A stretch of DNA of 32,049 nucleotides, taken from assembly GCA_023382535.1 (NCBI GenBank), contig JAHDWA010000088.1:1-32049 (forward strand), in the 5' to 3' direction. A model generated the notes under the pieces. The model made no database searches. It was not told the DNA's origin and worked only from the letters and a program-made list of their open reading frames with translations. Position 1 is the stretch's first letter; each line of letters begins with the position of its first letter. This DNA is from Anaerolineae bacterium (GTDB lineage: Bacteria; Chloroflexota; Anaerolineae; 4572-78; J111). The translations under genes were made by a program, and so were the position numbers. This document shows, in pieces, positions 8,815-13,743 of the stretch.

Positions 8815-11800
8815 ATGCCTGATTTGCCGCAACAAAGCCTCTATCGTCCCGAATTTGAGCACGACGCCTGCGGCGTCGGTTTTATCGCCCGGACCACCGG
8901 CCGGGCCGGGCACGATATTGTGCAGATGGCGCTGGAAGCTGTCGGCAAAATGAAACACCGCAGCGGCATTGACGCCGACGGCCAATCCGGCGACGGCGCC
9001 GGCCTGCTGACCCAACTCCCCCATCGCCTGCTGGCCGCCGAAGTGGCCGATTTGCCCAAACCGGGCGATTATGGACTGGGTATGCTTTTCCTGCCAAATG
9101 GGAGTCAGGGGTCAGGGGTCAGGGGTCAGGGATTAGAAAAAATAATTGAATGGGTTGAGACAACCTTTAATCAAATTTTTGAAACCGTGGCTTCTCAATC
9201 GAAAATCGAAAATCGAAAATCCAAAATCGAGTGGCGGGATGTACCCATCAACCCCGCCGCGCTTGGCCCGACGGCCCGGCGCACCTGCCCCCAGATCAAG
9301 CAAATCATCATTCACCGCCCGGCGCACCTTGAACGCGGCGCTGCCTTTGAGCGATTTCTTTACACCGTACGCAAGCGGTTAGAAGCCGCCGCTCGCCAGG
9401 CCGGTCTGGACGACTTTTACATAGTCTCTCTGTCAGCTTACACGGTGGTTTACAAGGGCTTGATGCTCTCACCCTACCTGGCCGATTTTTACCTGGATCT
9501 GGCCAATCCGCTCTATGAAACAGCCCTGGCCACCCTACATACCCGCTACAGCACCAACACCACCTCTAACTGGCAGCGCGCCCAGCCGTTCCGCCTGGTA
9601 GCCCATAACGGCGAAATCAATACGCTGCAAGGCAATATTAACTGGATGCGCGCCCGCGAGTCAATGTTAGCCTCGCCCTTCTGGCCGGACGCTCTGGCCG
9701 ACCTGCGGCCCATTATTGACCCCTCCGGCAGCGATTCGGCCATGCTTGATAACGTCCTGGAGCTGCTGCTGCATGCCGGGCGGGATATTCATCACAGCAT
9801 GGCCATGCTTATGCCCGAGGCCTGGGAAAACCTGCTCGATCTTGACCCTGACCGGCAGGCTTTTTATCGCTACCACGCCGCGTTGATGGAGCCGTGGGAC
9901 GGCCCGGCGGGGGTGGTCTTTAGCGATGGCCGGCGCGTCGGCGCAACCCTGGACCGCAACGGCCTGCGCCCGATGCGTTATCTGACCACCAGCACCAATC
10001 TGGTGATTGCTACGTCCGAAGCGGGCGTGGTCAGCCTGGACGAGGGCACCATCACGACCAAGGGGAAACTCGGCCCCGGCCAGATGATCCTGGTGGATGT
10101 GGAGCGGCAGCTCTTTTTGACCAACGACCAGGTTAAGAACGAACTGGCCCGCCGCCTGCCTTACCGGGATTGGGTGGAGGGCTTCAAACCGCTGCCCACG
10201 GAAACGCGCCCGGCCTATTTCTCGCTGGAATCGGTCCAGCAGCGCCCTCTGCCGCCCAAGGTCAACACAACGCCGCAGTGGCTGGCCCGTTTGCAGGCGG
10301 CTTTTGGCTACACCCACGAAGAACTCATCGTTATTGTCCGGCCCATGGCCGACGAAGGCAAAGAGCCAACCGGCTCAATGGGCGACGACACGCCGCTGGC
10401 GGTCATGTCGCCCCGGGCCAGGCCCCTGTTTCACTATTTTAAGCAGCGTTTTGCCCAGGTGACGAACCCGCCAATTGACCCGCTGCGCGAGACGTTTGTT
10501 ATGTCGCTGACCATCCGGCTGGGGGCGCACCCCAACCTGCTGGAGGAGACGGCCCCACACGCTCACCTGGTTGAGCTGGCCAGCCCGGTTTTAAGTGACG
10601 CCGACCTGGTTGCGTTGAAGGGGTTGGGCGACCCGCGCTTCCAGACGCAGACTATTGCCATGCGCTATCCGGTAGCTCAGGGAGAAGCGGGCTTGCGCCG
10701 GGCGCTCAACCGGCTGGGTAAAATGGCCGAAGATGCGATTAGCCAGGGCAAAACCATCCTCATTTTGAGCGATTTGGGGATCAACGAGCAGTACGCACCG
10801 ATTCCCAGCCTGCTGGCCGTGGGCGCGGTGCATCATCACCTGGTGCGACGTGGCAAGCGGATGCAGGTCAGCCTGGTGGTTGAGAGCGGCGAGGTCCGTG
10901 AAGTACATCACCTGGCCTGTTTGATCGGTTATGGGGCCAATGCCGTCAACCCCTACCTGGCTCTGGCCACCGTGGATGATCTGGTCAGGGCGGGGAAAAT
11001 CAAGCTGGAAGTGAATGAAGCCCGGCTTAATTTTGTGCGGGCGCTTGAGGCCGGGCTGCTCAAGGTCATGTCCAAAATGGGCATCTCGACGGTAGACAGC
11101 TACTGCGGCGCACAGATTTTTGAAGTGGTGGGGCTGAGCCAGGCGCTAGTTGGCGAATTCTTCAGCGGTACGGTTTCGCGCCTGGGGGGTATCGGCCTGG
11201 CAGCGATTGCCGCCGAGACGCAGCGCTGGCACCAGGCCGGTTTTGCCGATCCGCAGCGGCCCGACATCCAGAGCTACGGCTTTTACAAGTACAAGCGCGA
11301 CGGCGAAACTCACGCCTATGATCCGCTGATTGTCAAGGCGCTGCAAACCGCCGTGCGGATGGAGGGGGTGCTCAGTCCGGCGGCGAGGGAAGAGAGAACA
11401 ATTGTCAATAATGAATTGTCAATAATGAATTGTCAATTGTCAGAGTCTAACAGCCATAACTCAATTATCCAGGGAAACGGCAGGCCGAGGAACAGTCGTG
11501 TCTCGGCCCTCGCCAAAGTAACCACAAATGGGACGAACCATGTACCTGCTCAACCGGCAACAGACTGCGAACTACAGACTACGGACTACAGTCACGGGGT
11601 AATTATCAATGAACGGCGGTCCACAGCCGGCGGTCAGCGGTCGTTTGTGGGCGCTAACTTTGCCGCCGGCTATCGGGCTTACCAGGAATTTGTCGAGCTG
11701 GTGCAGCAGCGCCCCGTGATTGACCCGCGCCACATGTTCGATTTTGTCTCAACCGGCCGGCCCAGGCTCGACCTGGCCGAAGTGGAACCGTTGGAAGCCA

Positions 11801-13743: not shown

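Follow-up and report, generated by a model that had tools for sequence, protein, structure and literature searches.

The DNA analysed, a stretch of 32,049 nucleotides from an Anaerolineae bacterium (hereafter the window), carries three consecutive genes which NCBIfam models all identify as glutamate synthase subunits: gltB1 (2317-6996, forward strand), a large subunit; gltD (7112-8674, forward strand), the small subunit of 520 amino acids (TIGR01317, 787 bits); and gltB2 (8815-13743, forward strand), a second large subunit of 1642 amino acids. GltB2 scored 1731 bits against the whole-length family model NF008730 (cut-off 1047), and models of its fragments matched the solved folds of GltB/GltS. 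It keeps DACGVGF at residue 17, the context of the N-terminal nucleophile cysteine, and the iron-sulfur motif C-x5-C-x4-C (CLLARACHSNTC) at residue 1244. The nearest named relatives of GltB2 among the matches listed were proteins from Anaerolineales and Anaerolineae MAGs, which makes an uncultured bacterium of this group the most likely host. In five cases GltB1-type and GltB2-type matches came from contigs of equal size (58508, 260227, 10455, 12602 and 201397), joined in two of them (260227 and 10455) by a GltD match, which suggests that some relatives keep gltB1 and gltD beside gltB2, equal contig size being a hint and not a proof. Just past GEGG, residues 1036-1050 of GltB2 seem to form a shorter stretch, in partial alignments, than is found in solved NADPH-type and ferredoxin-type enzymes; the ferredoxin-type enzyme has an extra loop near this gap.

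Repeat arrays in gltB2 and in its surroundings

Tandem Repeats Finder (TRF) placed six arrays of 7- or 8-nt units at four sites of gltB2, all of them on the forward strand and in frame within ORF 8815-13743. Site 1 (9104-9131) consists of 4.0 copies of GTCAGGG with a 100% match and encodes residues 97-106 (SQGSGVRGQG). Site 2 (9197-9230), with 4.9 copies of AATCGAA (92%), encodes residues 128-139 (QSKIENRKSKIE), and 12 of 14 residues here are compatible with one 7-nt unit. Site 3 comprises 3a (11400-11442; residues 862-876, TIVNNELSIMNCQLS), where the heptamers AATTGTC and AATAATG alternate, and 3b (11560-11591; residues 916-926, TDCELQTTDYS), with heptamers of the ACAGACT/ACGAACT type. At site 4, a purine-rich arm, 4a (12804-12852; (AAGAATGG)6, 6.1 copies of 8 nt, 85%; residues 1330-1346, VRMEEWENGRMEERKNG), is followed by a pyrimidine-rich arm able to pair with it, 4b (12859-12891; (CAACCTTC)4, 4.1 copies of 8 nt, 92%; residues 1349-1359, QPSNLPAFQPS); the peptide of 4a fits an 8-nt unit at 14 of 16 positions at residue 1331.

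A preliminary description of this DNA had claimed four extra segments in GltB2, encoded by exact arrays which keep the frame, spare every catalytic motif and are lacking in the neighbouring GltB. Frame and motifs were described correctly: all six arrays are read open, and neither the context of the nucleophile cysteine nor the C-x5-C-x4-C motif is disrupted. The four sites are real as well, but a fifth one, residues 281-308 of GltD, had been overlooked. Exactness holds for 9104-9131 and, solely as a 14-nt unit made of two alternating heptamers, for 11400-11437 (match at period 7, 67%). Residues of about 856-945 had been taken as array-encoded, but about 26 of them lie in the arrays 3a and 3b, and most of site 3 is non-array sequence. 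Absence from the neighbouring GltB is true of gltB1 in the window, but 4 of 60 GltB1-type proteins scanned bear similar inserts in a different loop.

The insertion of GltD comprises 28 residues, versus 3 residues in the solved GltD 7mfm_I. It includes a G-rich, octamer-like arm of the GAGGACAC type (7961-7995, forward strand; TRF 7961-7987 with score 33, 7964-7995 with score 43) and an array of 4.0 octamers of the ATCACCTC type (8003-8034, forward strand; TRF 91%, period-8 score 18), which encodes residues 298-308. Between genes, TRF reported an inverted pair of heptamer arrays in the spacer of gltB1 and gltD (7001-7087), a GGTCAATAATC-type heptamer array with TCAATTG units (17888-17926), which is kin of site 3a, and a pair of octamer arrays of the GGAAGGTT/AACCTTCC type, inverted to each other (31888-31964), which is kin of site 4. 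The relationship between genic and intergenic units that had been noted earlier was borne out, some units being identical (CAACCTTC at 31928-31961, TCAATTG at 17888-17926); this dispersal of kindred arrays (7001-7087, 17888-17926 and 31888-31964) is described for the 32-kb window only. The reverse-strand ORF 31559-31957 crosses the last pair, but an ATG nearer at about 31885, judged by eye, suggests that the pair lies upstream of the gene. An imperfect AT-rich tandem repeat of 22-23 nt is also present in intergenic DNA at 18908-18966.

In gltB2, 2 segments scored at least 14 at lag 7, 2 at lag 8 and 3 at lag 14; of these last three, two are the lag-7 arrays counted again. None appeared at these lags in 300 codon shuffles of gltB2, and the same scan of gltB1 (2317-6996) returned no segment. 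With a simple scan at cut-off 13, the window contained five period-7/8 arrays, all in gltD or gltB2 (8003-8034 among them), and 1,415,156 bases from 146 other loci, which were fetched GltB matches partly overlapping one another, contained three, none in any gltB. Three period-7/8 arrays were likewise seen in 286,215 bases of genome G702, one of them in an ORF near its start. A ten-copy array of CTTTCGC-type heptamers adjoins the gltB stop codon of a locus from the phylum sample (L141, 1391-1463); it was considered as a within-GltB case and rejected, the frame stopping at codon 1468-1470 and the array being placed just beyond the gltB end. An Rfam search of the window at gathering scores gave no matches.

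AlphaFold models of GltB2 residues 1-480 and 780-1480 had mean pLDDT values of 84.6 and 73.5 and matched solved glutamate synthases. In the first model, sites 1 and 2 form two loops on either side of helix 107-126, before and after it, respectively. Values below 50 were obtained for residues 100-103 (site 1), 129-133 (site 2), 866-938 (site 3, overlapping 3a) and 1337-1347 (the middle of site 4). Low values were also found off the sites, at residues 1-4 and 465-480 of the first model and, in fragment numbering, at 1-9, 39-53, 297-309, 330-336, 391-403 and 699-701 of the second. The models thus place all four sites in low-confidence loops or linkers, as had been predicted from the sequence, and the low pLDDT is consistent with disorder without proving it.

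Variation of the sites among relatives

In addition to the query, the protein search gave 120 proteins; it admitted sequences with 0.55 to 1.75 times the length of the query, so truncated forms may have escaped it. Among these matches, P0003 to P0037 and P0062 form with the GltB2 of the window (P0002) a clade of 36 relatives, from Anaerolineae or Chloroflexota where named. It is well separated on a tree built from the protein-search matches, with no proteins from the fetched loci (distance up to 0.77, next protein at 1.29). The four sites are hypervariable in length and sequence across all listed clade members, and the remainder of the protein is stable. According to the preliminary description, conserved protein and non-repeat DNA at the same segments in close relatives would speak against a repeat origin; the closest listed relative, P0003, was found to be 95.7% identical to P0002 outside the sites and 73.6% inside them, and the values for P0007 were 88.7% and 47.6%. 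Nineteen of the 20 indels between P0002 and P0003-P0007 fall within the sites. P0008 was aligned but left out of this count, its N-terminal part being unmatched (it is labelled in the source as a partial class I tRNA ligase). The length of the sites varied between species: three indels are exactly 7 residues long, equal to three heptamers, one is 8 residues long, and the other 16 have neither length, so array slippage is not the sole process. Residues 914-920 of GltB2, seven residues in the stretch of site 3b, are missing in P0003.

For the detection of such units in proteins, windows of 14 residues from the 37 proteins (P0002 and its 36 relatives) were compared with all 11,260 stop-free peptides of 7-nt units, the site limits being those of the original observation after widening (93-143, 848-950 and 1325-1366). 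Matches of at least 9/14 were found in 243 of 4,943 windows in the sites and in none of 52,150 elsewhere, and they occurred in 15 of the 36 relatives (16 of 37 proteins with P0002). Self-identity at lag 7 within the sites had a z of 12.6, and all other lags from 3 to 24 ranged from -2.6 to 3.4; the signal was 12.2 for P0002-P0008 and 6.9 for the remaining clade proteins. Outside the sites the same test gave 5.6 (lag 7), 9.8 (lag 3) and -9.9 (lag 14), and it is not a clean one among related proteins. In the 8-nt scan of the 37 clade proteins, P0007 reached 16/16 at site 4, P0002 14 and P0003 11, all others remaining below 11. Repeat DNA may underlie the inserts of the relatives too, as judged from their protein sequences.

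The site 2 units deduced from the peptides of 12 proteins were AAAATCG, AAAAATC, AAATCGG, AAAATTC, AATCTCC, AAATCCC, AACCCCC, AAAACCC and AACTCAG, and array-bearing and array-free members of the clade are interleaved on the tree. Since units differ between relatives and are patchy on the tree, turnover appears to be recurrent. Distant relatives with a shared deduced unit were also found (AAAATCG in P0002 and P0026, AAAAATC in P0005 and P0029), and this could also be caused by an old array that was kept in some lineages and lost in others. The tree pattern would fit either gain or loss of arrays.

DNA of the clade was sought in genome contigs, where the best 80 loci listed were all distant, and in viral contigs, where two loci were found and neither was close. 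Whole-genome searches with P0002 returned no clade members from the samples of the G001 class (393) and phylum (400), nor, at an E-value cut-off of 1e-270, from the classes of G399, G405, G425 and G431 (29, 1, 7 and 41 genomes, respectively); the larger groups were sampled, so that absence of the clade is not implied. The best match in these searches, from the phylum sample, was 65% identical over residues 950-1619.

Other GltB lineages showed 7-nt-coded windows in a loop different from the GltB2 sites. The GltB1-type scan covered 60 of 120 proteins and excluded P0128 for its internal duplication; the four proteins mentioned above (P0124, P0127, P0131 and P0132) have windows scoring at least 10 that start at 464-495. 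Such windows occurred in 7 of 83 outgroup GltBs, starting at 449 to 503 in P0038, P0041, P0046, P0048 and P0106 (the last also at 305) and lying elsewhere, marginally, in P0053 and P0068. The 75 residues preceding AFGYT could be located in 109 of 119 GltB1-type, 56 of 83 outgroup and 33 of 37 GltB2-clade proteins. Lag 7 was weak in this stretch (z 2.1, 2.8 and 0.6, respectively), other lags being stronger, and the other-loop cases therefore rest on the individual proteins scanned. None of 121 GltDs scored above 8 with 7-nt units; with 8-nt units only P0245 reached at least 11, and it did so where the GltD of the window, itself below 11 at the protein level, has its insertion.

Origin of the inserts

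Based on these results, we give a probability of about 0.8 to selection-filtered insertion, expansion and replacement of 7- and 8-nt tandem arrays in permissive glutamate synthase loops of an Anaerolineae-like lineage. Such arrays, which elsewhere are known chiefly from intergenic DNA, would have been inserted, expanded and exchanged repeatedly at a few loops or linkers, with slippage as the likely means of expansion. The frame would be restored every 21 nt by three heptamers, or every 24 nt by three octamers, and the array would therefore be read as a peptide with a period of 7 or 8 residues. Selection would retain those copies which keep the frame, are free of stops and lie where a floppy insert is compatible with the fold, and the peptides themselves may be neutral or nearly neutral. 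The suggestion made earlier that repeats were seeded or expanded under tolerance in loops, and could be a source of linkers, agrees with the variation of the sites in the clade, the 7-nt windows of its members and the loop models; the repeat-built peptides of GltB2 are probably tolerated.

The distribution of stop codons bears on this filter. In the sense in which they are used, seven of the eight coding arrays are free of stops in all three frames, and the eighth can be read through in the frame that it uses; if inverted, 4/8 would contain stops. Of the arrays outside genes, 5/6 are interrupted by a stop when the forward strand is read in one or more of its frames. Although the numbers are small, this pattern is what selection acting on random arrivals would leave.

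It could also be that the arrays arrive as mobile small hairpin elements, i.e., inverted pairs of arrays, similar to palindromic coding repeats. Three stretches fold as hairpins in which an array is succeeded by its inverse complement, namely site 4 (12800-12896, z -3.28), the gltB1-gltD spacer (6996-7092, z -4.98) and 31888-31964 (z -5.11), and close relatives seem, from peptides compared by eye, to retain the order of G-rich to C-rich at site 4 with changing units. However, no hairpin was formed by sites 1, 2, 3a and 3b (z -1.66, 0.51, -0.36 and -0.61), by 17886-17930 (-0.99) or by 2255-2300 (0.82), the GltD insertion folds weakly (-1.06), and no common element sequence was noticed. Because these seven other stretches are unremarkable (z -1.66 to 0.82), an element of the hairpin type is possible for part of the sites only. 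As a general account it is improbable; it overlaps filtered insertion and adds a mode of arrival to it.

Ordinary hypervariable low-complexity loops, whose repeat look results from biased composition, might be suspected, as loop length is variable in large enzymes whatever the family and 23/37 clade proteins fall short of score 10, which 14/37 attain. The shuffling of residues nevertheless abolished the signal: among 3,526 site windows 237 scored at least 9, compared with at most 10 in any one of 40 shuffles and 27 after reversal, and at a score of at least 11 there were 47 compared with none in either control. The codon shuffles also lacked the DNA arrays of gltB2, and this reading is largely refuted by codon shuffles, window test and composition control, and little credence is left to it.

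Phase-variable length had been proposed as well. Slippage of a 7- or 8-nt array by one unit breaks the frame, and therefore any switch would turn GltB2 off and on and would not grade its length. Unit lengths that are not multiples of three, one perfect array with 4 copies, and gltB1 as a second GltB that could cover losses are compatible with such a contingency locus, and heptamer arrays drive phase variation at the hmw1A promoter of H. influenzae (PMC8262952). On the other hand, the arrays have few copies (4 to 6) and are mostly imperfect, the 7-residue differences among close relatives equal three units, as expected if the frame is kept, and most listed relatives are full length: only 3 of the 36 (P0036, P0037 and P0062) are shorter than 1,400 amino acids, and some are named partial. 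Switching is accordingly very unlikely. An assembly or chimera artefact, conceivable as the window may be a metagenome record, can practically be dismissed, since P0003 (on a 2.4-Mb contig) and P0004 to P0007 have comparable inserts at the same sites and the gltB2 ORF is open across 1,642 codons.

Filtered insertion of arrays provides a countable case in which simple-sequence DNA becomes internal segments of a conserved metabolic enzyme, in the same loops across many relatives, and the sites mark loops of glutamate synthase that tolerate long inserts. Since neither 7 nor 8 nt is divisible by three, the units offer a natural test of how repeat insertions are filtered by frame and stop codons. 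A far more speculative view, and one that we doubt, is that non-triplet short tandem repeats actively drive protein change in this lineage as a general process, with small hairpin-like pairs of arrays, which have no conserved sequence, continually entering both spacers and permissive loops of core enzymes. If it were true, new disordered linkers would be exchanged by lineages every few species, and GltB1, GltD and GltB2 would exemplify something that happens throughout the proteome.

Comparison with known repeats and further features of the window

The short tandemly repeated repetitive (STRR) heptamers are cyanobacterial repeats, and Rickettsia palindromic elements (RPE) are in-frame genic repeats with dyad symmetry and a recognisable element sequence. 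Tandem heptamers of the STRR kind occur at 9104-9131 and 9197-9230, and site 4 and GltD use 8-nt units. A conserved element of the Rickettsia type was not seen in GltB2, where units differ across sites and relatives. PARCELs are likewise in-frame genic repeats with dyad symmetry (PMC2996958), but they have a 25-residue motif, and the gltB2 sites share no sequence that was seen, only unit length. Dispersed families of 7-nt arrays may link the window to STRR and to the G-rich heptamers of Xanthomonas and Nostoc, although the phyla differ; the latter are described (PMC4692102) as over-represented in non-coding DNA and rarer on the coding strand of genes.

A parallel in stop-codon logic is given by the TAACTGA direct repeats that MacGregor (2015, PMC4679880) described from Beggiatoaceae, Cyanobacteria and Bacteroidetes, which are 7-nt arrays mainly between genes with some in ORFs, and whose stops in one orientation restrict genic copies. 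Those repeats have a single unit sequence and lie mostly at the protein periphery. In gltB2, by contrast, there are many units, also of 8 nt, and they occupy more than one internal loop of a single conserved enzyme and recur in its clade. The amino-acid tandem repeats of Borgs (PMC9879509) are similar in that genic repeats are read as disordered, fast-evolving protein segments; in Borgs all genic units are divisible by three, unlike the 7- and 8-nt units here, with which the frame of GltB2 and GltD is regained only over three units or through the flanks. A survey of prokaryotic satellites (PMC6749651) reports some abundant families built from heptamers and many satellites encoding amino-acid repeats, with Chloroflexus aurantiacus among the example species, but coding satellites were inferred there from unit lengths divisible by three, unlike the gltB2 arrays. 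Our literature search, which covered titles and the openings of abstracts, with subscription journals mostly outside it, found no such arrays in glutamate synthase, in Anaerolineae or in internal loops of conserved enzymes. Heptamer arrays in genes and the logic of stop codons were already known (PMC4679880), and their recurrence in loops inside an enzyme of this kind appears to be new.

Several further features were observed in the window. An intergenic palindrome of the type AGACCC.AAAGGTTT..AAACCTTT.GG is located at 2020-2050. A pattern search with 3 mismatches recovered this copy only; a possible kin copy (EDPKGLKKPLGSG) was noticed by eye at 15664-15697, in frame inside an alpha/beta hydrolase ORF (14992-16128). 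A gene pair of a PhdYeFM antitoxin and a PIN-domain protein (1145-1994) is likely a toxin-antitoxin system, and an AAA_5 ATPase gene followed by a gene for a McrBC component (19387-22366) is likely a restriction pair of the McrBC type. The protein encoded at 18109-18807 combines an HU-like DNA-binding domain with DUF4469, a combination known mainly from Bacteroidetes.
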